From assembly GCA_002900995.3 (NCBI GenBank), contig CM035305.1, positions 4,076,467 to 4,140,466 on the forward strand: DNA of 64,000 bases. The letters run 5' to 3'. The stretch comes from Ganoderma boninense (lineage: Eukaryota; Basidiomycota; Agaricomycetes; Polyporales; Polyporaceae). Within the stretch, counting starts at the first letter, position 1. Every line of letters begins with the position of its first letter. The position numbers and the translations under genes were made by a program. Positions 11,313 through 33,539 of this stretch are shown one piece after another. The notes beneath the pieces were generated by a model. The model was given only the letters and a program-made list of their open reading frames with translations, searched no databases and was not told the DNA's origin.

Positions 11313-11835
11313 AGTTGGCGACCTTTGATGTGAAGGTGCGGACCTTTGCAACATTTTTGTAAGTCATCTGTAACCTGGCACACGGCGATGAAACTAACCT
11401 TAGTGAGAAGCAACTTCACAGGCCATATGGCCTCTGTGAACTCGGCCTTTTCACCAACAGTCATCTCCCCCATCGCGTCGACCTCCTCCTCTTCATCCAT
11501 GTCATACTCCTTGACCTCTGAACTATGCTCTGCGGCGTTGTCCTCCTCTTGGTCCCCAACAGTGTTCTCGTCCTTGTCCGTGTCTGGCTCGTCGTCAGCT
11601 CCAGCTTCCCCGACCAGCTCGGTGATCTCGGGGTCATCACCCTCGTCCCCCTCGGCTTTCTTTTTCTGTGCGCGAGTGTCGAAATGACTCACAAGGTTAG
11701 TGCCCCTGACGATGTTCAAGATATGCAAGAAACAGCGGACACGGGCGGCGACCCCCTCAAAAGCTGGAAGGTTCGCGTCCTTCGTGAGCTCGTCAATCAT
11801 CGTATTATTGTTCGACGTGTTATCGCATGTGACAG
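11313..11835 (-). pseudogene. Minus-strand hAT transposase, middle fragment
   Basis: Starts at 11835 in the middle of the conserved V-T-C-D-N motif (GTC ACA TGC GAT AAC) and continues NNNTMIDEL, RVRCFLHILNIV (the HxxNL zone), an acidic linker of about 80 residues typical of fungal hAT transposases, and PVKLLLTK. A GTTAGT donor then opens a short intron ending in GCAAAG, after which VRTFTSKVANS leads into the foldback insertion. The upstream half of the motif lies 20 kb away at 32095-32109. Confidence 0.8.
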
Positions 11836-11885
11836 TAAGGCTGAACATAGGTCAACCTATAGTTGATTGGGATCTGAACCTGTGA

Positions 11886-13089
11886 GTTTGGCCACTTTCA
11901 GAGGCTTGATTGGGATCCGCACAAATCCAATCAACTTTTTACCTACAACCCACAGGTGGCAAACCTATAAGTTATAGGCCAAATCATTGATTTGATTTGA
12001 ATACCAAATATAGTATTTTTAAGCTATCATTGAAGATTTTGACTTGGTATTGAGTGTTACTAGTGTTTTTCATACTAGAAATATGCTTATATATGCAGTA
12101 TTAAGCTATACAAGGACAATTCATGAACTAAAACCTTCAATTTATGTTATTTTGGCCATTAAAGTGTGAGTCAACCTGCAAGTGACCCATACCCAAACTT
12201 ACAGACTTGGTTGGAAGTGGGCCATTGCTGGCAGGTGACGATTGATGAGGAACTGAGTTGTATACGTATGATTGCTACATGTTTAAATGTTTATGCTGCT
12301 CAAATAGATAAAACTTTGCTTGTGTTTAAACTTATATATATTGCAGATACTGTTTTAAACATTCTAGTATACAAGATTTATCATAAGTATATTAGGATAT
12401 AGAGACTATAAGTACATATAGTAGTGGAAAGGCCACTTCTATATGCTTGTACTCAGGCAGAAGTTCTGAAAGGAAGTATTATATAGTATAATTATTGCTT
12501 AGCTAACAAGGGTGTTTGGTGTAGTGGTTTTTAGCACTGCGTTGACCACTTCAGTTTGAGCCCCGGGTTCGACTCCTGCTCGAGCCAACTGACAATTAAT
12601 TTTTTATTGACATAAGTAAGTTTGAAGATGAGATAAGAACAGTGCAGCAATGCTGCAATTAATGTTTTGTAATGCTGATTAGCCCCCATGACGCAAAGGC
12701 AAACTTGCACACAGAGTCAGCTCTAACCGTGGTCGGGGGCACCAGCAGCTGTCGACTTAGTCCTGGGTGCCTCGGGCGCTAAGATGCATCAAGGCCGAAA
12801 AGAGTTAAGCTCCTCAGAGATTTGCCGATGGACTTTGTTTCCATCTCAGTGGTTAACTTTGGCGTCTCCATTACCCAATCGGCTTGCTAAGGTTGCCAGG
12901 AACTCACCCTCTCATCCACTCCATCACAGTATTTACTAGCAGTGATGTTACCAGTTGGTCCCTTTGGCCACTATATGCCTGACATCCAGCCTTGAGTCTG
13001 CCATAGCAATGCAAGGGCTTACATTGTGTATGATACAAAAGAGCATGCGATAGAATAGAGCGACGATTGCGATGCACTGAAAACCTCTG
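11886..13089. other. AT-rich stretch without a recognisable gene
   Basis: Apart from the tRNA-like sequence, this stretch has only short chance frames. Near the TIR it carries repeats of AACCTAT/ATAGGTT-like words. 12700-13000 is less AT-rich, but no frame there has supporting motifs or splice structure. Confidence 0.5.
12514..12594 (+). other. tRNA-like sequence with A and B boxes
   Basis: GGTGTAGTGG resembles a D arm with A box, and GGGTTCGACTCC resembles a T loop with B box, at tRNA spacing. The acceptor ends do not pair, so this is a degenerate tRNA or the head of a SINE rather than a working gene. Confidence 0.4.
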
Positions 13090-13572
13090 TCAAGCCTTTA
13101 GATCGACAATTACCCCGTGCGCCTTGTGCAGCCTTGCCTTTCTAATCTGAATCTCCTGGTTCTTCGGCATGGTGCGCTCAGCTGCTTGTGAGCACGGGTG
13201 AGAGGGGTGGTCTAGAGGTCCCTGCTGGGTAAGGGATCCATAAGGAAAGGAGGTTCTTGAGACCCCCAGTACACCCCATGATTGATTACAGTGACAACTG
13301 TAATTAAACAAATGTATTAGCTCCCACGTGATAAACGATATGAAGATTATTAATCTCAGACACTTACGCTCGTCCATCGCATCCTTTGCAATCGTGGCGA
13401 GGCCCAGTGTGATCCATTGTTGATTGTTAAACTCCTCTTCTGCAAGCTGGAGAGCGTCGACGGTGCTCTCGGTCTCGCTATGTTCGACCTGTGCTGTGCT
13501 TCGCGGGAGTGCGCGCTGTGCATCATCCAATTGGTAAAGAGCGGCACTGTGGCGATCGACACTATAGCGCAT
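13090..13572 (-). CDS. Unrecognised small protein, probably two exons
   Basis: A possible gene inside the element attached to the 11836 terminus. The first exon (from ATG at 13572) encodes a hydrophilic peptide ending GLATIAKDAMDE. A GTAAGT donor follows, and the best acceptor (CAAGCAG) leads into a basic tail, PERTMPKNQEIQIRKARLHK, ending at 13090-13092. The spliced product would be about 100 residues with no family I recognise. The pyrimidine-rich strand towards the gap at 13880 could be its promoter. The whole frame also stays open through the intron. Confidence 0.4.
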   Translation of the reverse strand: MRYSVDRHSAALYQLDDAQRALPRSTAQVEHSETESTVDALQLAEEEFNNQQWITLGLATIAKDAMDERKCLRLIIFISFITWELIHLFNYSCHCNQSWGVLGVSRTSFPYGSLTQQGPLDHPSHPCSQAAERTMPKNQEIQIRKARLHKAHGVIVDLKA

Positions 13573-13879
13573 TGCCTCAGGCGCGAGTCATGTTCGAGTA
13601 GTCGACGTCGAAGGAATGGAGTCGTTCGGGGGGTGAGGTACACATCTCGGCCACATGGTGAGGATGTGGCGAGAAACGGATGAAGAGGTTCGGGTACGCA
13701 GGAGGGGAGGCGCGCGGAGTACGAAGGTGGGAGGCGCGCGAGTGTACGAAGGTGGGGCGGCACACGAGTATACGCGGAGGTAGGGCGCGCGGGCGATGCG
13801 GAGGGGTGAGCGTGCGCTGGAAGTAGAAGGTCGAGGGCGTCGAGTACGTAAGGTGGCAGGGCTGCGGAGTGTACGAAGC

Positions 13880-13979
13880 NNNNNNNNNNNNNNNNNNNNN
13901 NNNNNNNNNNNNNNNNNNNNNNNNNNNNNNNNNNNNNNNNNNNNNNNNNNNNNNNNNNNNNNNNNNNNNNNNNNNNNNN
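13880..13979. other. Assembly gap, 100 N
   Basis: Exactly 100 N, the usual placeholder for a scaffold gap of unknown size. The sequence changes from transposon-rich to GC-rich unique sequence across it. Confidence 1.
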
Positions 13980-16259
13980 GGCCCCGTGGCGCAGCAGCCC
14001 CTCCTTTGGTATGAGCTCATTGAGGACTTGGAGGACTTTGATTCAGACTTTAGGCTACGGTTCCCGCCTGTCGATCGCCCAACCCGAGCGAAGGTGCGAG
14101 CGCGGCACACAGCTATGTCACTGTGTGTCATCGGTGCTGGGATACGCATGCCTTTTTACGCGCCTTTCCGTGTCTGTGCTACAGCCATACTTTATGTTGT
14201 GCTTTACATACGAGTAGCTACACATGTTCGCCGTTCAACGTAACGTTCCCCCACCACGCGTGCATCACGTCCCGCCGCTTGTTTGGTGGGGATTGTTCCT
14301 TATACGACACTAATCCCACAACCTGGATTCAGGTTCAGCCCACCGTGGCTATTAAAATTGGATGATTCCGGCCGTTTGCGATGCATCCGCGGCGACGCGG
14401 GTCCGATTCGATCACGTCCACTGCCAGTACTTAGCTGGAGCTCATCTGGCTCAGGGCTCGCTCGGTTGCTTGAAAAGTGCTAACGGGTAACGTTGCGCGG
14501 AAGCAAACGCATAAAATTGTGGCGCCTGCCCATAAGCCAGCCCTGCGACTGGGTTGAATGGTGTTTCCGGGACTTGTATGTGGTTCCGTTCAACGTCACC
14601 GCGTCCGCCATCGGGCATAGACGGGGCCCGGACGAGTAGAGAATTCTCTCTGCATGCGCAAATTCCGAATGTTGTGCGATTAGGCTTCCTAACTGAACTG
14701 ACGAGAGGCTCGGAGAGCGCTGCTTACGGCTGGTGTTGGCCGGTTGGTTGTCCCTATGGTAGCGGCGTTCGACGGAACATCTAGGGCGCAGCCCATCGTG
14801 GATCGTCCGAGATCAAGATGCGTTTGGGCACCAGGGACCGAGGAATAGGGACTTATATACGCGTGCAGGAGGCGGACCGTGGCTCGGAGTTGGCTCGGAG
14901 AGCTCGGACGCGCCGCCACACGCTGGCGGCGGCAGCAGGTGTGGGGCGTGGCCGGGCCCCGGCGAAGTGCTGGCTCGGGGAGGCAATATTCGACGGTGTT
15001 TTGCATCTCGCATCTGGGGCTTCCCGCGCCAGCGTCTGACTGAATCTTCACGCGGCTGCGTGGGCCTCACGTATCACACCGGATGTTCGCGAAGTGGGAA
15101 GGACTTCCACTAGTGGCCACGGAGGACCCGTGGGCCGCGCGCCAGGCCAACGAACGGTTTGGATGCAATGCTGAAAATTGCGCTGGGCGTCGCGAGTTTG
15201 ACTGGCGAAAATAAGGAGGGTCTGCAAAAAGGTGAACGGTGCCCAGAGCAGACTGCATGGGGATCTTGTGTGGGCGCATGAGAATGGCCGTTGGTCCCGG
15301 TCAGTAATACTAATAATCCGCTAGCAGATGTACACCATTGCCAACGCGGCAGCCGGGCATCCCAACGTGTCCACAAGCGGATTGCCATCTCTGTCCGTGT
15401 CCTGCGAAGTGCTCGGCCGACAAAGCTCAATATTTAGCAATCTCAGCTGAAGCTTTGCTCCTTATGAAAGTGTGCGACATCGCGTAGGTTGAGCCCGGGG
15501 AGAATGGGTGCGAGGCGGAGAATGGCGGAGAAGCGATTATGTGTAAACGCAGCGGCGTGCGCTAGACTGCAATCGGGAATATCTTTTTCGGGTTTGCTGG
15601 CGCCTGTGGGGCGTGCGTGGACCCTTGGGGCGAGACGGAGATCTGGAGAAGATGAGGAGAGGAAGGTTGGGAATAATGACGGCTGGAGAGAAGAAGACCG
15701 GTTATGAAAGGACGGGGGTAAGAGAGAGTTTTGGCGAGGCGGAAAGGCAAAGGAGACGGCAAACAGTGGAGGCTGATGGGGGTTTCAAGGGGCGTTAAGC
15801 AAGGGCTCGGCCGTTGGTAGTCGGAGGTTTAAAATCGGGGGTCAGTCCGGCGAGCGTTGCATTTAGAGTTGCTTGCTCTTCCCCAGTAAGGACGCTCCTG
15901 TACACCGCTAATAGTCCTTGTCACCTCCCTCCCCATCCTCTGCTGTCAAAATTCCCCCCAGCGTGCGTCTCTCACTCCCCTCTCCACCGCCAGCTCACAC
16001 TCACCCCCCACCAGTACTCCCTATACATTGTACCAACATAGTCGTTATAGACGGGCTAAAAATCGGCTGGCAGGTCAGTCCCATCATCCCCTTCCTCAAC
16101 CACCTCTCCGATGTCTCTGACTCATCCCTCTGCTCGCCACGCATACCAGGATTACCCTTGTGCAATTAGGCTTATCTCACTCACTACTCTAACCGTTCTG
16201 CTCAATCTGTTCTCTGTCGACCAACTTGGAGCAAAAGTATTCCCTCTTCTTCATTCGCT
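13980..16259. other. Intergenic sequence upstream of the PUF gene
   Basis: No frame here has family motifs or a consistent exon series. Immediately after the gap about 110 bases could be the tail of a plus-strand exon (YELIEDLEDFDSDFRLRFPP), which I cannot assign. The last 350 bases (about 15890-16259) are strongly pyrimidine-rich on the plus strand, typical of fungal promoters, and precede the PUF start codon. Confidence 0.55.
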
Positions 16260-19200
16260 ATGAATACTACTTTGGACGCCTCTACTTCCCCCATCGAGTC
16301 TCGCCAAAACCCCGACGACAGGATTCAGAGCCCCCCTGCCTTCTTGGACCTCGCTGACTCGGTGCGTTCTTTCCTTCCCCGCCATCCCCCACACAGCAGC
16401 GGCCCACTCACATATGCCCGTCCCCGCTGCCGCTTCTGCAGGCCGCGAGGCTCGGTGCTAATGTTCCGGACGTCTCTGCTGTGGGTTCTTCACCGCGTGC
16501 CCAAGCCTCTCACGTTCGCGTAAGCTGACCAGTTGTCTCTCGGCAAACATCAGCGCATGCTCAAGCGCATGGAACACGAGCGTCAACGCGCCCTCCAGCG
16601 CAAGATGTTCGAGGATCAGATGCGCGCCCTCGAACAGCAGCAGGCCCGAGAGCTGCTCAGCATCCCCATCGAGGCAACCCAGCATCTCGCCGTCTCGGCG
16701 CCTACAACTCCTCCCCGCGTCAACGCCGTATTGAGCGACGACCATTCTCCGACCTACCCGTCCAGCCTTGCTCGCTCGGTCATGGATCCTGACGCGTTGT
16801 CGCAGGCCGTTGGCAAGGCGGACAAGCGTAAGTCGGTCACCTACGCCCCCTCTGTCAACCATTCCCCGGAGATGCCGTCCAGCAACCAGTCTTTCGCCCG
16901 ACCCGGAGGTGCCAAGAGCATGCCTGCTAGCCGTCGCACGTCTGCGAGTGAGCACGACGAGGACCTTGCTTCGCATTTGCAAGGTCTTTCCCTTGCAGGG
17001 GAGCGCGCTGATCGCGAACGCGAACGCGGTGTCACGCCATCTGGTATGATTCCTCAGTCCATTCTCCGCTCGAACAGCGGGCGGTTCGCCAACGACTATG
17101 CGGGAGTGGGAGTATACAACGCGGGCATGATGCTCGACGAGCAGTTGGATCAGGAGATGCATAGTACGTACGCGTTGTTTCATTCGAATCAACCGCGTCT
17201 CACGCGCTTTAGATGCGATGCGTCATTTGCCTACTTCAGATGAGGATAAGTTCTCGAACGGCTTCACGAACAAGGTCCGTTTATTCCCCGCTCTCTGCTC
17301 CAACGCGACTTGCATGCTGAGTCGACAACCCCTGCACTTCCCGGTTCCCATCCGATTGCCCCGCCCAGCAGAAGTCCTCCGAATGGCCGCAGTTTAACGG
17401 TAGCGGACGTATCCCCGAGAGCTTGAGCCGCTCTGATCGCCGGAACGTGACTAACCCCGCCATGAGCCTGTCTCCTGCGTTGGGTGACCTCTCGGGGCCC
17501 AAGGGCAACGGCGCGGTGTCAGGCACTACGACGCCTCTCTTGCAGCAGGTGTCTCAGGGTCTTGCACAAGGCCTTTCGTCACGCCGTGGATCTCCGCTGA
17601 GTCTCGGTGACAATCGTTCGTCAATCCCCTCTGCCCGCTCTGTGCCCGCTACCCCGCTCCCTGGCATGCCCAGCTCTGCTGGGTCGCTTGCGAAGGCCCC
17701 TGGTACGCCGCTCTCTGGCGACCCGCACAACATCAACGGCATCTTGAGCGCGCAGATCTCGCGCCAGCTCAGCGAGGAGAGTGAACTCAATCCCTCATTG
17801 TCGCGCATGCCGTCGGGCCAATTCGACGGGAGCCCTTTGAGCTTCAACTCCATTCAGTCAGGGATCGACGAGGTGTGTGGCGTTCGGTCGGCGCCCCGTT
17901 CCGGATCGCGATGTCTGACATGTATAATGGTTTCCAGCAGTATGGCGGCGATGGCGTGTATGGGCTCTCCGGCGGTATCGACGGGGGGCGTTTCAACTCG
18001 TACGGGTTCGAGGCGGCAGGCCGTGGCAGCGCTGCTGTCGGGTCGACGGGCTCGACGGCGCTGTACCATCACAACGGGGCGAAGTACGGCTTCAATATGA
18101 ATGGACGTCCCAACGGGGGAGCGGATGGGAAGATGAATGGTCTGCATGGGCCTAAGCACAAGCGCGGTGACATCGACCGTGAGTGTACGTCCCTGACAAC
18201 ACCGCTGTGCGGGACTGCGGGGTTGATGTCATATTGACCGAATGTGTGCAGTCAACAGGTTCGCGGGAACGCGTCTAGAGGACCTCGTGGGGGAGATCCC
18301 GCAGCTGTGCAAGGACCAGCACGGTTGCCGCTACCTCCAGAAGAAGCTCGAGGAGGGCCTTCCGGAACATCGCGACATGATTTTCCGCGAGACGTTCGGT
18401 CATTTTGCGGATCTCATGACGGGTGAGTTTAGTGCATCATCTTCGGAGCGGCGTTGTTTGGGTTGCTAACGGAGTGTGCCTTACCTCTTAGATCCTTTCG
18501 GCAACTACCTCTGCCAGAAGCTACTGGAGTACTCTACGGACGAGCAGCGGAACGTCATCTGCGAGTCCGTCGCCCAGGACCTCGTGAACATTTCGCTCAA
18601 TATGCATGGCACGCGTGCGGTTCAGAAGATGATCGACTTCCTTTCCACCCGGAGGCAGGCGAGTGTCACACCAGTCAATATGATCTCACTATCTTCACGG
18701 TTAGCGTGAACTGACGGCGTGCCTCGTCTAGATCCACTCTATCATCCTTGCTTTGAGCCTGCACGTTGTGGTGCTCATCAAGGATCTCAACGGCAACCAC
18801 GTCATTCAGAAGTGTCTCAACAAGCTTGCACCGGAGGACAACCAGGTAAGAGCGTCAGCATCCTGATTTGACGAAGGTCGTCTCCTGATCTTCATGCGGG
18901 TCGCGCAGTTTATCTACAATGCCGTTGCTGCGAACTGCGTTGAGGTCGCCACGCATCGCCATGGGTGCTGCGTGCTGCAGCGCTGCATTGACCATGCTTC
19001 GGAGCACCAACGTGTTCAGCTCGTGAACGAGATCACGTACAACGCGCTCACGCTTGTCCAGGACCCTTACGGCAACTATGTAAGTTTTCTTTGCGTGACG
19101 CCACGCACAAACTCCGTACGTTCTGTTCTGATACTGATGTGGGTAAACGCGGCAGGTGGTGCAATACATTCTCGATTTGAATGACAACCGCTTCAGCGAC

Positions 19201-20047
19201 GCGGTTATCCGCCAGTTCACGGGCAACGTGTGCGCCTTGTCCGTGCAGAAGTTCAGCTCAAACGTCATCGAGAAGGTGCGAGGATACCTTTTGTGGGAGC
19301 GTCCTCCCTGGGCTCATCAGATGGCTTGTCGTTTTTGAAGTGCGTTCGGGTTGCCGAGCACTCCACGCGCAAGATGCTGATTGGAGAACTTTTGAACCGG
19401 ACTCGCCTGGAGAAACTGTTGCGAGATTCCTACGGCAATTATTGTGTGCAGGTCCGTCCTTCCATCATGCCCCTTGCGCTGACGTGCAGGGTATGCTGAC
19501 CGTGGGTACTGTATTGCAGACTGCGCTCGATTACGCTGAGCCGGGGCAGCGTGCCCTCCTCGTTGAGGGCATCCGCCCTGTTCTCCCGCTTATCCGCAAC
19601 ACGCCGTACGGTAAGCGGATCCAGAACAAGCTGCAGCGCGAGCACAACGATGTGTACGGCGGCGGCGGCGGAGGCTACCATCACAACCCGCAAGCGCTTG
19701 CGAACATGGCTCTCGGCAACCAAGGGATGGGAATGGCCCACGGCCACAACGCGGGCCGTCATATGTCCCACCTCCAGGCCGGTGCCTTGGCGGACGCGTA
19801 CGCTGCGCAGAACAGTCTTTACGCGTTGCAGGGTGGTCCAGCCCTCCACGCAGCGCCGCTGCACGCTGGCCTCCAGACACACTCGATCGACAGCTACGTG
19901 ATGCAGGGCTCGAACAACCACAGCCCTGGCCTTACCCCTCCCCAGTCGCACGCTGGAGCGTTCTCTGGAATGTCTTCCTACGGCAATGCGTTCCCGGTGG
20001 CCGTCGCGGATCCTTACCAACGCCAGTCGTTCCCGTATGGCATGTGA
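16260..20047 (+). CDS. Pumilio/PUF-family RNA-binding protein
   Basis: A cytoplasmic post-transcriptional regulator that binds 3'UTRs carrying a UGUA core. The gene has twelve exons; introns I can place are 16362-16441, 16520-16553, 17164-17212, 17275-17371, 17873-17937, 18179-18251, 18423-18491, 18659-18731 (GC-AG), 18846-18908, 19080-19155, 19276-19340 and 19452-19519. A long low-complexity N-terminal region (with a basic/coiled segment KRMEHERQRALQRKMFEDQ) precedes eight PUF repeats from LCKDQHGCRYLQKKL to DSYGNYCVQTALDYA. RNA-contact residues are readable: NYxxQ in repeats 2, 6 and 8, NHxxQ in 4 and SNxxE in 7, which by the known code reads U-G-U for repeats 8-7-6. The tail is Gly/His-rich. 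It resembles yeast Puf4/Puf3-type proteins; the exact orthologue is uncertain. Confidence 0.92.
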
Positions 20048-20839
20048 GGCCGCCGTCCTGGATCCTAGGTCCTGGTCGGCCTCGTGAGACTGCCGCAAGC
20101 GGTCGTCTCGCTGGTTCATCGAAAACAAGACCATATGCATATCTCGTCATTCGTTTGGCCTCGTACTGCTCTCCTAATCGCTCCCGCATGCCCTCCCGAC
20201 GCATGCGGGATTATACCTATGCCAGCTCGTTATGGACCCTGTTTAGTATCCCCCCGGGCTCAGCGGCCCGCGTCCGCGGACCCTCATGCATCCGGGCTGC
20301 TCGCTCTCCTCGAATATATTACCAGCATTGCGCAATTGTATTTTGCCACATCCGCATCCAACAGGTGTTTCGTCACATACAACTCTCTCGCTCTTCTCGC
20401 TTTCCGCTCCTTGCACTATACAACCCCAACAAGAAGAAACCCGCCATTAAACATCTACTCGTCCTTTTATATCGCTTGCTGCTTGCCTTGCACTCTCTGC
20501 TGCTCCGCGTCCCCGCACCTACGTGACACTTGTACTGCGTACTCCTTCACACTTGTACAGCGTACCAGCCCTTGTTCGCTCCCTCATCCCCCCGCCCATT
20601 CCTAGGCCCCGTAATTTGTTTTTATAGTATATCGAGAGCATTAGTTGTTTGTCATCCTGTACTTATTCTGCAATCTACAAGTCGTTTGATTAGGTCCAGG
20701 AACTGGTTCTTCGGTGTGCTTGTTCGACCTTTAAACCGTCTGACACAGCCACGTGATCTGGCAAGAACGACCGCAGCACAGGAATTGCACTCGTTTCCGA
20801 TCATTCATCGGACGTCCACGCTGGGCTCTGCTACTCGAG
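20048..20839 (+). other. 3'UTR and promoter region between PUF and methyltransferase genes
   Basis: Pyrimidine-rich throughout, with no coding signal. The two genes are in the same direction and 0.8 kb apart. Short frames here are chance openings in CT-rich sequence. Confidence 0.6.
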
Positions 20840-23102
20840 ATGTCTGACCGTGAATACTCTCCGTCTCCTTCGCCGGAGGAAGACTGGGGCGAGAGCGACA
20901 AAGAATGGATCGTTGACGGAATCGTCGGAGAGAGCGTCGATGCTTTCGGTCAGAAGAGGTAGAGGTCCTTGTTTCAACTTGACTGAAGGAGGACATGGTC
21001 GCTCACACTCCTATTCAGATATGAGGTTCCGGTGTCTTCTCTATTCCGCCTCCCATGGAACGCTCATCCTCCGACAGGTGAAATGGGGGGAAGGATGGAA
21101 GCGCAAGGACGGCACGAATACGACCTGGGAGCACCCTCGCGAAGACCTCGAAGAGCTCATCAAAGAGTGGGACGAGAAACAGACTGCAAAGCGGATGGCC
21201 AAGGCCAAGGCGAGCCCTGCCATCGAGATAGGTGTCGAGGATTGGCACATGCTCCACGAAGACCGGACAATCGAGCTCGCCCGGGGCTACGAGGAGCTCA
21301 AGCAGTTGTACCTAGACGACGGCCCCAACTCGGACGATCCGCGGCGACCAATCGACTTTGATGGGCAGCTCAAACGGTTGAAGCCTCTCTCGACCGCCGC
21401 AAATGCCACAATGCGCCACGCTTCGGCCTCATCCAAGACGCTGTCGTCCAGGAACACTTCTGCGGCGCGAGCATCAACGTCGACGCTGACGTCCAGGGAG
21501 GTGTCCAGGGAAAAGTCGGGGTCGAACACCCCGGGCTCGTCGAGCCCTGCTCCGGGGCCGTCGCACAGGCCGGTGAAGCCACTTCCCAAGCGCGCCAGCC
21601 GCAGGTTTATCTCCTCTCCGGCGCCGGACTCGGAGGAGGAGAAGGAGCGTTCGGCGGGTTCGCGTGTGTCGCCATTGCCAGCGCCAGGGGTTCGTAAACG
21701 CAAGGAACTACAGAGGAAATGGGCGGAGGGCATGGACGGCGCTGCACCTGTCACCATTGTGAACGATGTCACTAGCCAGCCGACTCCGAACCTTGTTCCA
21801 GATTTTCAGTACCTCGAGCGACACTACGTATAGTGAGTGCGATATCTGATACCAAAGACTTCAGGTGAACAAGAATCAGCTGACCAGACGTCTCTTCTAG
21901 CGCGGATGGCACGCAAATGTCAGAGGACCACAAGGCATTCCTGGTGGGCTGTGAATGCGAAGAGCTCTGCCTAGAGGCCGGCAAGTGCGATTGTCAGATG
22001 GAATCGGGATTGCGAAATGGCAGCGGTCATCACATGTTTGCGTACACGAGGAAGGTTCGCAGGTCTACGAGTCCCTTTCCAGCTAGACAATGGTGCTCAC
22101 ATCCGACTGTAGCAAAAGTTGTTCGGCTTCAAGTTACCCCCTGGGATGGAAGTAATCGAATGCAATGAGGTACGAACATGAATCTCAACGTTCACAACCC
22201 CAGCCTTTTGATATCTGTAGAATTGCATATGCGAAGCTGCGTGCCCCAATCGGGTCGCGCAGCTACCTAGGGACGTTCCTATCGAGATCTTCCTCACACG
22301 AACACACGGTTGGGGGGCAAGGGCGACCATTCCTCTCAGAAAGGGCAAAGTTCTTGGAATCTACACTGGGTAGGGCTTCGAATTTATAGTATGAGTTTGA
22401 GGATCACAACTAATGGTCTTGAAGGGAGTTGATGTTAGTTTATTCAATCCTATGTTTTCGAAAGAGCATATCCAGGCTAAGCGAAGACATAGACCTCGTG
22501 CAGTCGCAGAGGAGCGTCAAGAGTCAGGTCACGAACGCAAATCTTACATCTTCGACCTGGACGTGCGGGAAGGCGGCGACGATGCAAACGACGACGACTC
22601 GACCGGGAAATACTCGGTGGACGGGTATGCACACGGTATGCCTTCCTCCCGTTACATGCCCGCCATTGCATGAGCTGAAAATTGAATAATCAACCGTGCA
22701 GGAAACTGGACCAGATTCGTGAAGTAGTTCTAATCGGCTTACCTTCTCAGAATCCCCCGTTGACCAACTTCCTTGCAGCCATTCCTGCGAGCCCAATATG
22801 CAAGTCGTCCCTGTAGTCTGGGACACCATCCCAGAAGTGAGTGCATCCACCCCCTCACACACACACACACACACTTGCATTCTGACATCTTTGCCGTCAT
22901 CGGACTCTAGCTCAAGCAGCCCTACTTGGCATTCGTCGCGGTCCAAGACATCCCTGCTCGTACAGAATTGACTATCGACTATGACCCGCTGGGCGCACTG
23001 GAAAGTCCAGAAGAGAAGGGTAAACATCTCCAGACGAGGCCTGAAGGCGCCAGGAGGTGCATGTGCGGGACTAGGAGTTGTCGGGGATGGGTGAAGGTAT
23101 AA
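20840..23102 (+). CDS. SUV39/Clr4-type histone H3K9 methyltransferase (chromodomain plus SET)
   Basis: Predicted nuclear heterochromatin enzyme that methylates histone H3 lysine 9. The start [12 protein letters not shown] leads into a chromodomain (YEV ... [15 protein letters not shown]) and a Ser-rich linker with RSAGS/KRASRR patches. A pre-SET cysteine cluster ([15 protein letters not shown], later CICEAACPN) follows, then SET motifs HGWGARA, SYIFDLD, FVNHSCEPN and ELTIDYDP, and post-[11 protein letters not shown]. Introns I can place: 20959-21018, a second within 21026-21081 (exact donor uncertain), 21833-21900, 22055-22112, 22170 to about 22220, 22370-22438, 22636-22701, 22724-22778 and about 22837-22910. 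All junctions keep frame. The usual YxGE motif reads YTGLF here if the 22370 intron is right. Catalytic NHSCEPN and post-SET Cys are present, so it looks functional. Confidence 0.9.
22856..22874. repeat. (CA)n microsatellite in a methyltransferase intron
   Basis: About nine CA units lie between the GTGAGT donor near 22837 and the acceptor CTCTAG near 22910. Confidence 0.9.
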
Positions 23103-23593
23103 TCATGCTCGGCAACGTGTTACGGTAGGACTATCCATCCCGTGGAGACACATGTAAACGTTGTGTTGGACTGGGTGAAGAATTCTGCTGAGCGGGGAGG
23201 TCTAGTAAGCCGCCAGGCTCAGAGTCAAGCTTTGTGGATCTTCGTTAGCGTTTCACAACGGATCGACTGACACCCAATCTATCGCGACCGAGTGTGCAGA
23301 AACAAAGGGGTATCGACATATAATACAATGTGTACTAGGACGGCGGTCATACACGAAAGCACGGCTCTACGTATAAAAAACGACGACAGTCCGAGACGAG
23401 ACAACCATCCAAACAAACCCTCCTCTATCTGTCCGGCCCACCCGCTAGTATCACCGCACCGACCACAGCACCACTAGGCACGCTTAACTTCAGAGCCGCA
23501 ACCCGCAACCCGCAGGGCACAGACCGTAGACAACAAGTTGCGTAGCCCGGAGGCACCACGGCGGTCTACACCAGACAACACACAACACGCGTG
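23103..23593. other. Convergent intergenic region
   Basis: The methyltransferase (plus) and the kinase (minus) run towards each other, so this 0.5 kb must hold both 3'UTRs. I see no gene or strong hairpin in it. Confidence 0.6.
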
Positions 23594-25876
23594 TCAAAAC
23601 AGATAGGCAGATAGGACCATCATGGCCGGATGTGCATCTTTTTGAATAGCCCCATGAACCCGCCCTCCCGGATGATTGTGAAATTGGTTGTACAGCTCTT
23701 CAGGAGCCTCGAACGACCCCGGCATCTTCAGCTCAGGCGTCGCCCGCCCGCTCGCAGGGCGGGACTCTGCCGAATGCGCTGGGTGCTCCGGGGCCGGGGC
23801 CGGGGCCTCCTGTGCTTCAGGCTGCGCCTGCGCAGGGGCAGGGCTTGGTTGCGGTGGCGTCGATACGGGCTCCTGTGGAGGCTCGGGTGCGCTGGGCTCG
23901 GGTGCATGCTTGGGCTCCCCATGCTCGTGCTCGTCCTCCTCGGGCGCGGTGACCTTGACGTACTCGCTCTCGCTGTGGGTCTCCTCGTGGGCAGAGCCCG
24001 CCGCGTCATGGGCTCGCCCCTGTGCTGAGAGTACAGCGCGCATCGGGTGCGGGTGGTCGTCATCGTCGTCGTCGCTGTCAACGAAGGACCCGGTGCGCCA
24101 GCCTCCGCTGCTCACGCTCCCGGTTGAGGTGCGCGAGGACACGCCGAAACGGTGGAGGGCACGCGCGCCGGCGATGGCCGCGCGCCATCGTGCGCGCGGG
24201 TCGAAGTGCTCGCGCAGCCCGGCAAGGTCGTGCTCAGTGGACGGCTTGTGGGACGTCAGCCACTGCGGTGCAGAATTGGGATGAGCAGGGACAACAGGAG
24301 ACGATGGAAGAGCGGGCGCACGTGGTGGTTCAAGGCTTCCTCCGCCGTGAGACGCTTGCTCGGGTCGGGGTTGAGCAGCGCTTTGACAAAGTCCTTGGCA
24401 GCATCGGAGACGTTGCTCCAATACCGCTCGTGGAACTCAATTTTGGCTTCTGTCGTCTCCCGGATGAGTTCTTTCACGTCGTCGGACCGGAATGGCGAAT
24501 AGCCGCAGAGCATGACGTATGTGATAATTCTTCGGGGCCGAAGCCATTCAGCATTCCAGTATCCTTGGCAGCTGCGAAGCAAGATGCCGTCACTCACCCT
24601 GTTGACCACATATCGACCGCCTTGCCATGACCCTTTTTGTTGAGCACTTCGGGAGCGACGTAACCGAAGCTGCCGGCAAGCGAATGAAGTTGCTCCTCGG
24701 GTGTATGCAGATGTTTTGCACTAGAGCACGTATATGTTGAGGGCCTATAGATGGACGATATAGTGCAAGACTCACATGCCGAAATCTGCTATGACAATAT
24801 CGGAATGCTCCTCCTGTGTTCTATACAAAATGTTCTCTGGCCTAGTACGAACGTAGTGAGCAAAGTATCTAACTGCATTACAGACAAATATATGCTTACT
24901 TGAGGTCTCGGTGCACGATATCGTGGTCATGAAGATACTTGACACCGGAAAGGATTGAGCTGCACAACCGTTCTTGTGGTCAGTATTCAAGGATCTGCAC
25001 TCCAGGGTCCACAGCACCATGACATCTGCACAGCCGACAGCCCACCGCAGATGCAACAGGAAAAGAAGACGCACTGAAGGACCTCGACTGCATCCGACTC
25101 CGTGAACTTCCCCTTCTTGGTGATCCGTTCGAAGAGCTCCCCGCCCTGCGCGAGCTCGAACGAGAGGTAGTACTTGGTGCGCGACTCGAACCACTCGTAG
25201 AACTTGACCTGTGCAGACAGCCGACGTTCAGTACAAGGACAACAGCCACCAGAATGACCATGACCCATGACGTATTTGATTGTGGAGATCACGCCCAAAA
25301 ATAACGAGACTGACAATGTTCGGGTGATCGAGCCCGCGGAGGACCTCCATCTCGCCCCAGACGCTGCTCTCGTTGCCTTTGACCTTCTTCTTCGGGATGA
25401 CCTTGAGCGCAACCTCGATACTGAGGCCCTCATCGTTACCGCCATGGGAGCTCTTAGCTGCCTTGGTGAAGGATGGGAGGTGCAATGAAGGACTGAGGGA
25501 GCCTCCGCTCGAATTAGTACGAGAAGGGACAGGCTTGGTCGGCGGGGGCGCGCTCGTCTCGCCGGACGCAAAAGCCCCGCGGAGGGCGACGTTCGTTAGG
25601 CCAGAGGGGACGTGCCATGTTGCACGCTATCAGGCATATGAGAAGCACCAGGTGCGATCACGATGTCAGGTCGTGCGAGCGAAAGCAGCAGGGAAGACAG
25701 TTTTTGAACGCAGGACGAGCGGTCAGCTCGCTGGTCTCGATGCAACAAGTCAGCTGCGTACCATGACCTTGCCGAAGCTTCCAGCACCGAGCACCTGATG
25801 GATTCTCATAGGTCTTCTCTTCTTCTGGAACGATGCGCAGCTGTGGGAAGCAGCGATTCTCGAGCGAAATAGGCAT
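23594..25876 (-). CDS. Ca2+/calmodulin-dependent protein kinase (CaMK type)
   Basis: Ser/Thr kinase of calcium signalling. The minus strand shows the Gly loop GAGSFGKVM, the Lys of [18 protein letters not shown], the DFG, the SFGYVAPEV activation-segment end and MLCGYSPF, all split by seven short introns. After the catalytic domain [22 protein letters not shown] matches the autoinhibitory/calmodulin-binding helix of CaMKs. A 170-residue acidic, proline-rich tail follows. Unusual is a Ser/Pro-rich insert of about 60 residues between the Gly loop and the catalytic Lys. The conserved N-terminus ([24 protein letters not shown] at 25876) is one base out of frame with [12 protein letters not shown] near 25803-25810. 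Either translation starts at ATG 25809 or there is a 1-bp error. Confidence 0.88.
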
Positions 25877-27051
25877 AGCGATTTGTGTAGGCTCGTTCCG
25901 CAAAGCTTTGGACGAGAGAGGTGGCGCAGATAAGATAGTGCGTCGGGCGGAGTTCTGTAGCCTAAAGGACTAGGGCTGTACTGTGTTCCGGGACGGGCTG
26001 GAATAGCCTATTAAGCGGCTTGAGTAGCACGAGGAGCTTTGAGGATCCGAGGAAGGTGTCGCCGGTGTATAGAAAACTGCTTCAGACGTTTGCAGAGAGG
26101 AAGAGAGCGACGGAGCGGCGTTGAGGACGAAGGTGAGCAGAGACCGATGGGGGTCGACAGAATAGACCGCTGTAGCCATTCTCAAGGAATGATGTCTTCC
26201 GTTGGAGTGCACGAGTCCTCTGGGTCCCTCGCACCTCTCCACGCACCGCGCCTTCAGGACTCCGGACACTCCCAATCTGCCACCGTCCGCAACGCCGCAA
26301 TGCCGAAGAGAGCCTCGCAACCGCACCGTTGGCAAACCGAAAAAGTCAGCCAGCTCAAAGTCCTGCAGGCCTGCAGCCTGCGCCGCGCGCGCCGTACGTC
26401 GGACATCGGTATCCAAGGCGCAATCAATCTTCGCGTAGGGTCACGACGGCGTTGAGGCTCATAACCGGCATAACCCCTCGCGTACAGGCGCCGCCGAGTG
26501 GCACAAGGACTACACCTGGCCTGACGTTCAGAATATCCCCTGGCGCAATAAAGGCCAACCTGTGGGACTCTGGATCGAATGAAGAGGAGGTACAGAAGTA
26601 ATTTCATCATGTATTCATTTGCTACAAGGTCACTTAAAGTTTACAGTTCCATCTGTGCGCATATGGTATGTTAGAAACCTGGGCACCTGGAGGATGACAG
26701 AACCGCTTGACCTGGTGCGCCCTCCTAGTGCTTGTAAGATAGATCTTGGGACGGCGCATGTCAGGCCTGGAAGGGGGCGACGGTCATACAACTTACAAGC
26801 TTGAGATGGGCTCTGTTACATGTCGACACTGGGGTTCTGGGCCGGGGCAGGAGCGCGGGCGTTGCCATTGTGATGGTGATTTCCAGGATAGGCACCGAAG
26901 ATGTTATTGCCTGTCAGAGGTCGTTGACGTCAGCGTACCAGGCAATGTGCCTCACTGGCAACTGCCCTTGTCTCCCGAGGCAGACGATAAATGACCTTAT
27001 TGCGTGGAGGGAGGACGGTCATATAACGCAGTGTTGTTCGGAGTCAAGTCA
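25877..27051. other. Kinase upstream region, no gene seen
   Basis: The first few hundred bases should hold the kinase promoter. Open frames of 60-150 codons occur on both strands but lack motifs, splice structure or consistent composition. Confidence 0.5.
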
Positions 27052-27109
27052 AGGTCATGACCGATCAGTCACGTCATGACTGGTCAACGCGTGACTGGGG
27101 GTCATGACC
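27052..27109 (+). repeat. GTCATGAC-rich repeat, copy 1
   Basis: A cluster of CATGACC/GGTCATG words ending in TGACTGGGGGTCATGACC (27092-27109). The same order of words recurs at 27881-27946 in the same orientation. Confidence 0.6.
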
Positions 27110-27880
27110 TTCGGTCAAGAGTCAGCGCTAGTCGGCGTGCAGTGGGTCCGATATTCCCGCATTTCGATGCATCCCGAACGTGCCAGGATGGTCGCTCTTT
27201 TCAAGGCCAGATGGGTTTTCTACTTATACCACACTGCGTGTAGCATTCGCCTGGATATTTAGGACGACAAGATAGATGAGCACCATGCCGTGGAAGGTTT
27301 GCCAGAGTCCGTGACTCGGATGGCAGGAGACTCATTCACGAGGCTAGCTTTCGAGCTTGTAGCGTCTGCCACACTGTCCTTCATTTTCTCCCCACTTCCA
27401 ACCTTGAAACACTTAACCCCTGCGGACGCACCCAGATGCCCTTGCCTTCACAGCCCCATCATGCACCTCGCTCCCGCCAGTCGCCGCTGGCACTGACAAT
27501 CCCCGCCCGGCTGCTCGAGGCTCTACCTCTACGCTCCTTGAGAAATTTTAGTTAGACATAAAACCATAGCGATTTGGTGCTCGATGTCGCCACGATGACT
27601 ACGTCGCTCTGAGATGGCAGGGGAGAGATGGAGAACCGAGCTGAGAACCTCCTTGGCGCCAGAACGTAGACACGGCCGGGGCAGAGGAGCAGTGTACATT
27701 AACTGCAACACGTACCAACTTCTAGCATCACTTAACATTCCTCTCCGTAGACATTATTTCAAGCTATTGTATCAATGTTCTATAGCCTGTATCAGTCTCA
27801 ATACTCCGGAGTACGAATTCGTCGTCAACCCCCTCCCCCGTATGCACTGGCAGCCCCCCCCCCGCCGACATCCAAGCGTG

Positions 27881-27946
27881 ACCCATGACCAATCAGTCAT
27901 GACCGGATAGCGGAGACGTCAACCGTCATGACTGGGGGTCATGACC
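27881..27946 (+). repeat. GTCATGAC-rich repeat, copy 2
   Basis: Direct repeat of 27052-27109, sharing ATGACCxATCAGTCA and the 18-base TGACTGGGGGTCATGACC (27929-27946). The 0.77 kb between the copies has no gene. This could be a solo/paired repeat of a small element or a binding-site cluster. Confidence 0.6.
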
Positions 27947-28438
27947 GGGGTCATAACAACACTGATATTATAACGTCTGCTTTCAACCGGCCCTCTTACC
28001 GTTAAGGTTCCACAAACACCCAGTCGACGATGCCGAAAGATCCGGTTGCCCATATAAGGGCAAAAAGCCTTTTTTGGAGAGCTTGCCAAGCGGGTGTTCC
28101 TGATTCTGTCGTAGCGCGCGCTCATCCTGTTCAAGGCGCTTTGCTGCCACTTCGCTGCTCGTCTACCTCTCGAGCTCGTGTTGCCCCTTGGTCTTGCTTG
28201 CAACTGTCTCAATGGCGACGTTCACTACGCTAGAATTTCCCTAAGAATTACGTTTTATAGCGCCACTGCAGATGCTTGGTCCCTAAACTTATGTACAAGG
28301 CCATGCCAGCTACAAGCCCTCGGGCTACCGACTCGTGGGCACTACACATATCTCAGCCGCAAGCGGACCTGTTCACGTCGCCCAACGGTCGGTTTCTATG
28401 ACCTATTCCAGTCCTCGCATTCTATCAGTATGTCTACG
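27947..28438. other. No recognisable gene
   Basis: GC-balanced sequence with a TATA-like CATATAAGG near 28053. No convincing frame. Confidence 0.4.
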
Positions 28439-28561
28439 AGAAGCTCACAATGTACACGACTGTAGACGACGCGCGCAAGCATGAGGAGAACCAGCCTGAG
28501 CACTTGTACGAGCAGAAAAGCCACGGCAGGCAAGTTGGAGTCGAATGGAGGAGAGATACAG
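28439..28561 (+). other. Possible isolated coding exon
   Basis: A 123-base open stretch with an acceptor (TCTATCAG) and a donor (ACAG/GTATGT), encoding a hydrophilic peptide (YVYEKLTMYTTVDDARKHEE ... VEWRRDT). I do not recognise the family and cannot find partner exons, so it may be a gene relic. Confidence 0.3.
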
Positions 28562-30449
28562 GTATGTCTCATCGTCTATTGTCGGATATAAGGGGGTCAA
28601 GGACATGGGCGAAGAGATGCAGATCGCGGTTGGTCACCATTACGGCTGTGGTCCGAGTCGCGTCTGCAGGTGGGCTTCATTTGATTTGATGGTCTAGATA
28701 TGTGTGCAATGCGTATTGGGCTTGTCCATCTGCGAAATAGTATGGTGTAACATTGTCTGGAAAGCGTGCTACGGCCTGACAAACACAGGAAGATGGGTGT
28801 AGGGAAGCGCGACGCGTCAACGCGCGTTCGTGTATAGATCTGACGCGTCGTCGGAGATCAAACTGATGCTTACAAACTCAGAGACGGGACCCTACGGTTC
28901 GAGGGGGTCAAATGAAAGCAGACTACAACTGCCCAACTGCTTGCCCATCGGCGCGTAAGCAGGTAAGTAACGTTGTGATCTATGTTCGCGAATCTTGTTC
29001 AAGATGACCTTTTTGAAGCTGCGCGTCTTGGTCGTGGCCATTGACCGCGATGCATCACACTTACCTGCAAAGAGCAGAGTCGCTGTACTCACAGGCCACG
29101 GTCACCACATGGAAGCGGCGAAAGCCTCCGACGTCCGCTGAATCCGATTGCTGCAGTGAACTTGATTACAGCAGTTACCGCATGATCCAATGCATATCGT
29201 CGTGAGTCATTCGTCGTATCTGGGCCCGCTGACGAACGAGACTCAACAAGTGGTCGATCGGGCGAAGTTGTTCCGCCCGCCCGGCGCGTGAAGGGTCAGA
29301 TTTAACAGTTTGGCATCGGCAGGACCGTCGGGTACCGTTTTGTGGTAACACTTGGTTAATCAAGTCGTGCAGCAGGTCCGCGGCGCATCCGATGCATGCG
29401 GAGGAACCGGCTTTAGTCCCGCAAGCCTCCAAGTCTCGGGCAGCGCTAGGCTCTTCCACCTTTACCAGGGACCTCAAAGCAAAAATAAATAAACCTACGC
29501 TTTGAACTTGAAGAGATGCTAGTAATGTACTCACCACCTCACTTGATCTTCAAAACGGGGCTAGGCCGACATGAGCTGATGGGGCAGCGGGAGGACGCCA
29601 CTCGACCTGACTTGAGTCTAGGGAATGCTGAGCTGCATGTTGATTATACGGAGGGGTGTCTACCATGCACGTGTCCTCGGCCTGTCCAGGCCTGTCCTCG
29701 CATTCGTCCGCGCTGAGTCGCTCGCACGCTGTTGATGGGTCGATAAAGATCATATGCTTCGATTCGGTGTCCCAACAGAAGAGCGGGTCCTGCAAATTTG
29801 CCTTATCTGGAACTGCACTCTGCCCTCCGCAACCTTGTCCGTGTGAGCCGATGTCGACGTCGCCCTGCAGTCTGCCTTTGTGTGCCACTCAAGAATCCTC
29901 GGCTGTTCTCTCATCATCCTCTATTCGATGGGTCCTCTCCACTCCGACGTACGCCCGTGCCGACCCCCGATCGTAAGCATCTCCTTGGGATACAGCCTTC
30001 ATACATCGTTGACCTCATTCGTTCCAGCCCTTGGCCCGCTGCTTGCTATAGCGCTTTCTCGAACCACGCACCTGCGACGGCCATCTAATAAGGTCGCACC
30101 TTCAGGCAGTCCGCTCGCTGCTGTGTGGCCTTGCAGAGCTTTCAAACAACTCAACCAACTGATTCGTCGTGCAGGCTAGGGACCAGCGTCCATGCGTCGC
30201 AAGTCCGAAGCTCTGAGGGGACAATGCCACAATAGCAGCGTCGTCCTATTCATGGCCAAACGGGAACGCAGGCCTGGGATGCACGTGATGAAATGCCCCG
30301 ATAGTCTGCGATGCGGACACGACGCCTGCCTCAACGTGATTAATACGGGGGGTACGCCTATTGCGCGTCTACCTCCAGGGGCGCTCATTTACTTTGTCGT
30401 CACACCAGCAGTTCCTCCTCGTCCCCTCCTTGCCCTATAAAAAACACCC
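28562..30449. other. No recognisable gene up to the gap
   Basis: Both strands were read for transposon, RNA and protein motifs and none found. The last bases before the gap are a CCCTATAAAAAACACCC tract with a TATA-like core. Confidence 0.4.
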
Positions 30450-30549
30450 NNNNNNNNNNNNNNNNNNNNNNNNNNNNNNNNNNNNNNNNNNNNNNNNNNN
30501 NNNNNNNNNNNNNNNNNNNNNNNNNNNNNNNNNNNNNNNNNNNNNNNNN
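30450..30549. other. Assembly gap, 100 N
   Basis: Second run of exactly 100 N. It separates the gene-bearing contig from the right-hand transposon-rich contig. Confidence 1.
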
Positions 30550-31094
30550 GCACGAGACCTCCCCAGTCCAGAGCCGAAGAGACGCAAGGTCGAGTCTCCC
30601 CACTCCGCACTTGCTAGAGCACACAGCACCGGAACCACAACAGCAAAAAGGTTCTACTAAGGTAAGACCGACTGTAAATGATCGAGTATTACTCGACACA
30701 AGCTAAACAACAGAGTGGACAGGACATGTATCGGGCACTCAAAAGCCTAACGGAGCAAACGGCGCACTTCAAGGACCAGATCGACTGTGTCAATGACATC
30801 GACGTCGAAGTCGACTCCTTGCGTCAAAGTGTCAACCACCTCGACGATGATGTCCAAGTGATCAACACAAAGATAGACGAGCTTCGAAAGGACATCGCTA
30901 TCGCAACCAAGGAGATTCTCAACACGCGCAGTGAGAACTTCAAGGTGAAACAAATGGTCGAACATATGGACGCGCAACTAGAGCAGGAGAGGGAGCTGAG
31001 GCATAAGCGCGAGGCCGATGAACAGCAACGCTTCAAGAGCACAATGAAGACCCTCAATGCCCTCATCGCCTGCTTTGCCAAAGAAGAGCCATAG
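30550..31094 (+). CDS. Unrecognised coiled-coil protein, 5' end in the gap
   Basis: From about 30678 to the stop at 31092-31094 runs a charged helical frame with heptad-like spacing (LRQSVNHLDDDVQVINTKID, ELRKDIAIATKEIL, AQLEQERELRHKREADEQQ). A short upstream segment after the gap encodes a putative nuclear signal (EPKRRKVE) and ends near a GTAAGA donor at 30661, so an intron probably links the two. No family is recognised. It lies on the piece attached to the 32094 terminus and so probably belongs to the hAT-type element. Confidence 0.5.
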
Positions 31095-32094
31095 GCACAG
31101 TAAGCCTGCAGGTGAAACAAAACACAATTGAATGTATTAATATAAATACTAAATATTTACACAGTCAAATTCAGATAAAAGCAAATGTCATGAACAGGCA
31201 TTACGAGCTACATATATAGTACCAGCCAAGTGTCAAGCCAAGCTTGACATTGCGCCCTTTTGGCGTAGCTGGTTCAGCGGCTGGTCTGTTCCTAACAGCA
31301 AAGCCTACATTGGCTAAGCTGAACGTCGAACCGCTCTGAGCTATTGTCGCGAACATGTACTAGTAGTAACAGAGACCATTAAAGCATCGTCAGTCCTACC
31401 AAAAGTATTGTTTGATGTCTGTACGACTAGCGAAGTTGGGAATTACTAGCTTGAGAAAGTGTGCGAAACGCCTGGCATGGGATCAGCACAGAAAGCGACA
31501 TGGCAGGCTGGAGAGTAAAATGTGTGTGGTAAGAGAACAGCAAAGGACAGACGGGAACAATAAATTAAGCTGGAGGGCAGTCAGTATGCCCTGCCATTGT
31601 ACCTCAAAGAGAACAGATAAAGTAGCCAAATGATCGTGCATATGAGGCGAGGCCTAAGCCCCAAGAACAGAGCGCTTATGCATGTATTATAATGTATAAC
31701 AATAGAGTAACCATAGAGATAACAAAAAACAACACAGCCACCATTCAAATCCTGACCCTAACCCTAAAGCTGTGCTGGCAAAGTAACAAAATTTGTAGTT
31801 GAGCGTCTAAAATTTTGTAGTCACAGCATTTCTGAGTCTGAAAATATTTTCCCACGTCAACGATAAGCGTTACGCTCGAATGGCGCAAAGTCCACCTCAT
31901 TATAAACGATTGATTTCGTTCCTCATCAATCGTAATCTAGGTCACCTCTTTCCAGATGCCTGATTCAGATTTGGGGCTGATTCATAGTACAAGTACTTAC
32001 AACCTAGTTAAACCTATAGATCACAACCTATGGGTGAATATCCAGGTTCAAGCCAGGTTGAACTGTGCAAAACTCAGACCTATGTTCAGCCTTA
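31095..32094. other. AT-rich 1-kb stretch ending in the right hAT-type terminus
   Basis: No gene. Near the end it carries AACCTA and CAGGTTCAA/GGTTGAAC words and finishes CCTATGTTCAGCCTTA at 32094, the inverse of the left terminus at 11836. Confidence 0.55.
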
Positions 32095-33126
32095 TGTGAC
32101 GGCCTTGATCTAGTGGTCTCAATGGTGAGCATTGACTTTCGCTTTGACTTCGACAGTGGGCTAACCTTATGCTCAATCCTGAACTCCTTCAGGACTTTGG
32201 CGAATGCGGCAGCGAGGTTGACCCTGGTGTGAGAGCAAGCAACCTCCACAAGGTAGAGGAGGAAACAGACTGGTTCTCCATTTTGCTCAAAGTGCACCAT
32301 GATCGCGACAAATGCACGATGGTTCGGAGATGTCCACGCGTCCGTAGCAAAGTGGAGCGCGCCTTCATGGTCCTATGGTATGTGTCAATCCGTGATCGGC
32401 GTTTGGACGTGTTTGATGACAAGTACTGACCTGCAATAACTTGGCAATCCGGCTCCTAGTGCGCTGGAACACCTCCGTCATGTCGCGCGCCACAGTCAAT
32501 GGGGATGGAAGGTAGTAACCCGGATGCCCGGTCTTCATCAGCACCTTGAAGCCGGGGTCGTTGACGATCCGGAAAGCCCTCAACAACTCACAGACCCACT
32601 TGACGATCTCAACCTGGGTCTCGGTGCGATTGTGCTGATGCGCACTGTATGTGATCTGACCTGCTTTGCATTCGAAGTGAGCGGTGATGGAACCTGTCTT
32701 TAGGATGCTTCTGATGACATCCTTGCGGGCGATCTAGACAGATGCAGCCTCCGCTGCCGCAGCAACTGTCTCGTTCCCCCAGCATTTGTTCACGTGCGCC
32801 CGCAGGTTCGACGTTGAGGACTGATCCTTCGTGTCCAAAAATCGCCGCACCGTCACGTTGCATCCCTGGTTGGTGCATTTGAAGACATGCGAGCAGCGAC
32901 TCCCTTCGTACCTGATCTCGGGTGTCAGTTCATAGAACACATAGATGGTGCTTGTCCACCACTCCTTCATTGCATCTGCGCATGGCATGCTGATCATCAG
33001 ATCCCGCAGGTCACTTGAATGGCGACAGACATGGCGACTCACTGAGCTGAGCTTCGGCGGTCATCTCTGGCTCATCCACACCCGACCTGGATGAGTCGTC
33101 ATCCCCCTCCAACTCAGAGTCCGCAC
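32095..33126 (-). pseudogene. Minus-strand hAT transposase, BED-finger and N-terminal catalytic fragment
   Basis: Reads from the acidic stretch SELEGDDDSSRSG through a probable intron into DAMKEWWTS, a BED zinc finger (CSHVFKCTNQGCN ... LRAHVNKCW), the helical IVKWVCELLRAFRIVNDPGF region, DAWTSPNHRAFVAIMVHFE (the first catalytic Asp region) and NLAAAFAKVLKEFRIEHK. A 56-bp intron (32110-32165) precedes IKAVT, whose codons are completed at 11835. The gene is stopped here only by the element ending at 32094. This is a BED-type hAT transposase common in basidiomycetes. Confidence 0.82.
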
Positions 33127-33339
33127 TAAGGCTGAACACGGTTACAGTTAACACTGCGGTTAACAGTTAACCGAGCCGCACTTTGAGCCGCAGTTATACG
33201 AGCCACGGTTTAATGTTAACCGTGGTGCAGTTAACTGCGGCTCCGGATCAAGGGTACAATAGAACACTTTAAACCGCAGTTTAACCGTGGTTTACAACAC
33301 TATATTAAATACATAATATTTACATATTTAATGCTATTG

Positions 33340-33412
33340 TACCAGCCGGGAATTGAACCAGAGACCCGGTTTATTCAAACAGCCGTGCTAACCACTGCAC
33401 CATGAGCTCTTA
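33340..33412 (-). other. tRNA-like sequence in the MITE (minus)
   Basis: Read on the minus strand: GTGCAGTGGTTAGCACG as the D arm/A box and CTGGTTCAATTCCCGG as the T arm/B box. The acceptor halves do not pair, so it is a degenerate tRNA. Confidence 0.5.
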
Positions 33413-33454
33413 ACTACCTTATATGCAACTATATCCATATACCAACGACCTTAT

Positions 33455-33497
33455 TGAGTGTTATCTTATCTTATCTATCTTATCTTATCTTATCTCA
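33455..33497. repeat. (TTATC)n pentanucleotide run in the MITE
   Basis: About eight imperfect TTATC/CTTAT units, equivalent to tandem GATAAG on the minus strand. Confidence 0.85.
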
Positions 33498-33539
33498 GTA
33501 ACAATAGTACTTATTATATTAGTTACCTATGGCTGTAAT

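Follow-up and report, generated by a model that had tools for sequence, protein, structure and literature searches.

An apparent 20.3-kb gene-carrying hAT element in Ganoderma boninense is very probably an assembly artefact laid over nested transposons

The 20.3-kb segment that lies between hAT-type termini in the window (the whole 64-kb stretch of Ganoderma boninense DNA analyzed here) is, judging from sequence comparisons, very probably an assembly artefact built on nested transposons, in which a second allele of another locus has most likely been placed, during scaffolding, where the interior of a Helitron had not assembled. Three layers are seen at the locus, namely a MITE in a hAT-like gene, a Helitron2-type element in that MITE, and a contig lying between two assembly gaps (Table 1). 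The first-pass annotation of this DNA had offered two readings of the segment, either a giant hAT element carrying three host genes as cargo or a middle contig that had been wrongly scaffolded into a smaller element.

Table 1. Coordinates of the features discussed (positions in the 64-kb window)
Feature	Position	Strand	Remarks
hAT-like transposase gene hosting the MITE, downstream part	11306-11835	-	Ends in the target duplication copy TGTGACAG (11828-11835)
MITE, left part	11836-12205	no strand	370 bp; the A at 12205 belongs to the MITE or to the Helitron
Helitron2-type element, 3' part	12206-13879	-	3' terminus at 12206, with the 3' asymmetric inverted repeat lying inside 12233-12253
G+C-rich tandem array, short, in the Helitron 3' part	13694-13768
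100-N gap	13880-13979	no strand	Probable false join
Middle contig	13980-30449	no strand	Second version (probable haplotig) of C2:3881250-3899557; probably misplaced
PUF-repeat gene region	16524-20047	+	Pfam PUF repeats
SET-like gene region	20757-22971	+	Weak Pre-SET match below cut-off; SET-type methyltransferase not firm
Protein kinase gene region	23594-26007	-	Kinase domain only; CaMK type is the label of the first-pass annotation
Private insertion of the window version	26968-28925		1958 bp; target duplication of 9 bp (CAACTGCCC); uninterrupted site in the C2:3.898-Mb version
100-N gap	30450-30549	no strand	Probable false join
Helitron2-type element, 5' part	30550-31935	-	5' repeat and hairpin occupy 31906-31933, with the 5' terminus at 31935 or 31934
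MITE, right part	31936-32094	no strand	159 bp
Second target duplication copy of the MITE, TGTGACGG	32095-32102	no strand
Interrupted hAT-like gene, upstream part	32103-33060	-	hAT-like by eye

The description of the outer boundaries given in the first pass was accurate. The terminal sequence TAAGGCTGAACATAGGTC has a single occurrence in the window, at 11836, and its exact reverse complement is likewise found once, at 32077-32094, the two forming a perfect inverted pair of 18 bp. The 8-mers flanking these termini (Table 1) are identical at 7/8 bases, the one difference having already been reported, and a match of at least 7/8 would arise by chance with a probability of about 4e-4 at equal base frequencies. 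Both gaps were also correctly described as runs of 100 N. When the insert is deleted, the joined flanks restore the frame IKAVTCDN across the duplication, and three genomic relatives (C14:69839-70134, C11:259721-260018, and C3:1667669-1667975) span the join as single alignments with 71-73% identity; the contigs ending at 13879 and starting at 30550 therefore flank one insertion. To this extent the earlier statement that deletion rejoins an interrupted hAT reading frame stands, but the frame of the upstream hAT exon differs from that of IKAVTCDN, and the gene would be continuous only with an intervening intron. The host gene is hAT-like by eye, and Pfam searches of its ORFs, those in the upstream part (32103-33060) included, gave no match. 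This gene is also the site of another hAT-type MITE, which belongs to a different family and lies at 33127-33811, some 1 kb away from the first one, with ends TAAGGCTGAACACGG... and a perfect 8-bp duplication, GTCCGCAC.

The hAT-type element itself is only about 530 bp long, and the sequence from about 12206 to about 31935 is a separate nested insertion, which the first-pass annotation had missed. Once closed up, the two MITE parts of the window make 529 bp, and 507 of the 529 aligned bases match another locus of the family (L004). Among seven other loci measured, six are exactly 531 bp long and combine this short length with hAT-type inverted ends and perfect 8-bp target duplications, as is proper to hAT MITEs, while the seventh (L003) gave only a 182-bp match. 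The family is abundant, being found in at least 40 places (40 of 79 candidate places scored). Because its halves close to 529 bp and its relatives measure 531 bp, the window copy is a MITE and not a 20-kb element. A giant hAT, autonomous or cargo-bearing, that had moved as a 20.3-kb unit would account for the perfect inverted ends, the 7/8 target duplication and the rejoined hAT-like frame; nonetheless it is extremely improbable, since the other family members are of 531 bp in 6/7 cases and truncated in the seventh, the space between the ends is not one continuous element and holds both termini of an unrelated element, copies of which occur elsewhere, and the contig with the host genes is a second copy of another locus. 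A non-autonomous hAT element of about 3.6 kb was considered as well and is out, as copies of 12206-13879 and of 30550-31935 occur next to other flanking sequences: the sequence reaching from the MITE halves to the gaps, which had been attributed to a non-autonomous hAT of 3.6 kb or larger, consists of the two ends of a Helitron2-type element.

By its terminal anatomy the inner element is of Helitron2 type. The published ends of this group have asymmetric terminal inverted repeats and a 5' hairpin (PMC3627910), and similar fungal elements, FoHeli, are described in PMC5148889. Intact MITEs read ...TTACAGATCTAGG..., whereas the left junction of the window reads ...TTACAGA/CTTGGTTGGAAG... and the right one ...CAATCGTAA/TCTAGG..., from which it follows that the inner element entered between A and T, at ACAGA^TCTAGG; as expected of Helitron2, it did so without a target duplication, or with at most one duplicated A. 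On the minus strand the sequence of the element starts with TTACGATTGATGAGGAAC..., and its 5' inverted repeat falls within the 0-2 bp from the 5' end and inside the hairpin that characterize Helitron2 (5'-TT-ACGATTGATGAGGAAC..., with a 9-bp stem ACGATTGAT/ATCAATCGT). The inverted repeat recurs near the 3' end, about 30 bp short of it, where GTTCCTCATCAATCGTC is followed by 31 bp, in keeping with the Helitron2 arrangement in which a hairpin follows a repeat located about 20-30 bp from the 3' end; the hairpin at this end is weak (a 4-bp stem, GCCA-GCAA-TGGC), and the resemblance of the 3' end is correspondingly weak. A diverged copy (L073) retains the 5' stem through a change on both of its sides. 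Eight distinct left-end rows and seven distinct right-end places, the window being included in both and the counts referring to matches that passed a filter requiring them to reach the element end, have common terminal bases and different flanks, and three further diverged right ends have the same form, again with different flanks. The two end modules occur together on C5, in the same orientation and 12.0 kb apart, with a 100-N gap 3 bases past the left-module match. Within the 5' part of the window element, a repeat of about 114 bp (31184-31297), which elsewhere occurs mostly in pairs about 383 bp apart, is solo-LTR-like, and the pairs resemble the LTRs of a very short TRIM-type element.

The interior of this Helitron family is hard to assemble. 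At the seven closest 5'-end places (93-100% identity) the assembly breaks in or at Helitron sequence in six cases: gaps lie in or directly at the Helitron on C2 (two gaps), C5, C11, and C1 (at 3395474 and at 3554198), and the C51 copy runs off the contig end. The remaining copy, on C4, is gap-free in the stretches seen. Three diverged 5' ends (79-82%) are gap-free in the 3.2 kb examined for each, a fourth, on C43, being outside the count, and the breaks are therefore not universal in the wider family. The position of the C5 break corresponds to the start of the G+C-rich tandem array of the window copy, the window gap starts 112 bp past that array, and on contig C63 a longer array built from similar units follows about 0.9 kb further on. 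The recurrence of misplaced contigs at Helitron gaps was looked at for one gap on C1, where the sequence on the far side is part of a local gene family and speaks neither for nor against such recurrence: this contig (L061, C1:3395600-3399100) carries a local repeat family of about 1.3 kb, present in ten places including itself within C1:3.27-3.42 Mb at 72-100% identity.

Regarding the coding content of these elements, a helicase-like ORF of 664 aa on contig C63 is a candidate component of the Helitron2-type element on the basis of its position and relatives. Its strand is the matching one and its distance from the 3' module 4-6 kb, C63 ending before any 5' end, and among the best 120 of its 494 relatives many have PIF1 helicase domains (PF05970); a Pfam search of the ORF itself gave no match. 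The Rep domain (PF14214) had 37 matches in the genome, none of them inside any Helitron copy read, and one of them, at C4:3635282-3635920, just outside the C4 copy. The C4 and C5 copies have about 8.6 kb of common interior with 98% identity, and the C4 copy contains an open frame of 835 aa (L060, C4:3623501-3633000, 5568-8075 on the plus strand), of 508 aa from the first ATG on C5, for which a Pfam search of the C4 frame found no match. An ORF of these C4 and C5 relatives may have an HFDTHD-like motif. Its identity as a TET/JBP dioxygenase was considered and dropped after Pfam and PDB sequence searches had given nothing relevant; a link between TET genes and fungal transposons is described in PMC12730594.

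The middle contig is, in its entirety, a second version of one other locus. BLAST aligned 13980-30445 with the N-free block C2:3881250-3899557, situated on the same scaffold as the window about 190 kb upstream, in three blocks with 95-96% identity, and the match extends by eye to the last contig base, 30449. Used as a query, the first kilobase had one strong second place (C2:3881250-3882253, 97%), as had the last kilobase (C2:3898498-3899557, 95%), which in addition matched C4 over 45 bp. On either side of the C2 block, a 2.1-kb stretch whose end lies 50 bp ahead of it and a 1.9-kb stretch whose start lies 43 bp beyond it had a single place each in the genome, and since the block has single-copy flanks, the duplicated segment begins and ends at the two N gaps. 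Besides the private insertion of the window version (Table 1), the C2 version has a private one of its own, of 3729 bp with the 5-bp duplication TGGAG, whose empty site is found in the window version. A whole contig that constitutes the second version of one other locus with single-copy flanks is what is expected of a haplotig, and the end-to-end match supports the second of the two original readings, that of a mis-scaffolded middle contig. We infer that the two copies are alleles and not the product of a real duplication, and that a scaffolding event brought the second one to its present position. This pair is the only retained second allele demonstrated, its allelic status being probable, and a 4-kb test at 43000-47000 for another retained allele found no second copy of the 95% type. 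The same stretch has relatives with 82-84% identity at C14:60878-64394 and C13:209075-209706; at C13:227173-227462, 290 bp match it exactly.

The host genes on the middle contig had been annotated as a PUF regulator, an H3K9 methyltransferase and a CaMK. PUF repeats were recovered by Pfam in three ORFs (49, 53, and 70 bits), as was a protein kinase domain (43 bits), in agreement with the PUF gene and with the kinase part of the CaMK label. The H3K9 methyltransferase was not confirmed by the same searches: the one match there is to Pre-SET, with 19.7 bits vs. a Pfam cut-off of 29.1, the 358-aa ORF before the Pre-SET ORF and the two ORFs after it gave no Pfam match, and a PDB sequence search with one ORF of the region found no match either. 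If the haplotig is misplaced, the PUF, SET-like and kinase genes would consequently be no transposon's cargo.

In the SET and kinase coding segments (2398 sites, in segments hand-picked from open frames and not annotated exons) the two versions differ at 17, 9, and 53 sites at codon positions 1, 2, and 3, respectively, with gap columns of 3 and 6 only, and as the differences concentrate at third codon positions both versions appear constrained in these segments. This count left out the kinase overlap at 24256-24436, the trimmed end of the kinase ORF, together with its two gaps of 2 and 1 bp at 23669 and 23687, and six PUF segments. The latter (2206 sites) showed 9, 14, and 19 differences at positions 1, 2, and 3, without a strong third-position bias, and many frame-breaking single-base gaps. 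Opposite 16.5-19.7 kb of the window, C2:3887500-3890700 carries 48 additional single bases, 15 others being absent from it, and the PUF frame is broken in the C2:3.88-Mb version, the open frames of the window being longer. This cluster of one-base differences looks like a poorly polished long-read patch in the primary copy, which is why the PUF segments were excluded from the codon count. Divergence is uneven along the contig, with 1/649 sites (0.2%) at 20050-20700, 42/940 at 26010-26960, and 112/890 (12.6%) at 22680-23590. Both this unevenness and the PUF pattern count against the reading as a misplaced second allele.

These patterns bear on two further explanations. The Helitron2-type element could have captured the 16.5-kb three-gene host segment at the locus about 190 kb upstream and brought it along when entering the MITE: the capture of host genes by Helitrons is known, Pleurotus ostreatus included (PMC4289320), the segment is bounded by genuine Helitron ends on both sides, and the scaffold that carries it also carries the donor-like locus. 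The duplicated block nevertheless coincides at both its ends with assembly gaps, no Helitron sequence was found on the middle contig (13980-30449), and the third-position bias in the SET and kinase segments, together with one private insertion in each version, favors two long-separated functional alleles over a captured copy. We therefore regard such a capture as unlikely, and little probability attaches to the corresponding idea that the PUF, SET-like and kinase genes were moved by the Helitron2-type element and stayed under constraint. Constraint on both versions in the SET and kinase segments would also suit a genuine old segmental duplication, with two functional paralogous loci and a middle contig correctly placed with no transposition, but this duplication would have needed to land inside the Helitron with its breakpoints at both gaps, and we regard it as highly improbable.

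According to the preferred reading, a misplaced second allele within nested transposons, a MITE of the 531-bp class with hAT ends inserted into the hAT-like gene, generating the 8-bp duplication, and a Helitron2-type element in minus orientation later inserted in this MITE between ACAGA and TCTAGG. The Helitron interior would have failed to assemble, leaving contig ends at 13879 and 30550, and scaffolding would then have put 13980-30449, the haplotig of C2:3881250-3899557, into the Helitron break.

Left uncorrected, the locus could lead to a giant gene-carrying hAT element being reported, or to the PUF, SET and kinase genes being counted twice. An unassembled transposon interior can take in a stray second allele and imitate the capture of genes by a transposon, and a cheap check for false cargo of this kind is whether the cargo contig matches another place from end to end, with its breaks at gaps. 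The nested series of hAT-like gene, MITE and Helitron2-type element, moreover, gives a precise empty site for the Helitron2-type family of the window.

In heterokaryotic fungal strains, two nuclear versions that are left unresolved inflate the assembly (PMC10995626). The present case is like the haplotig errors of dikaryotic fungal assemblies described there in that an extra second version has apparently been retained, and unlike them in that the extra contig has apparently been scaffolded inside a transposon, where it mimics gene capture. The MITE family of the window has no notable difference from hAT-type MITEs, likewise having 18-bp perfect inverted ends, 8-bp duplications, a length of about 530 bp and many copies. 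The inner element resembles Helitron2 (PMC3627910) in its 5' inverted repeat, which lies 1-2 bp inside the 5' end and contributes to a hairpin whose stem is 9 bp long, and in the copy of this repeat about 30 bp before the 3' end with a small, weak (4-bp) hairpin after it; like Helitron2 it also has a 5' end starting with T and no target duplication beyond possibly one base. Its termini, TTACGATTG... and ...CCAACCAAGT, are unlike those given for the FoHeli elements in PMC5148889.
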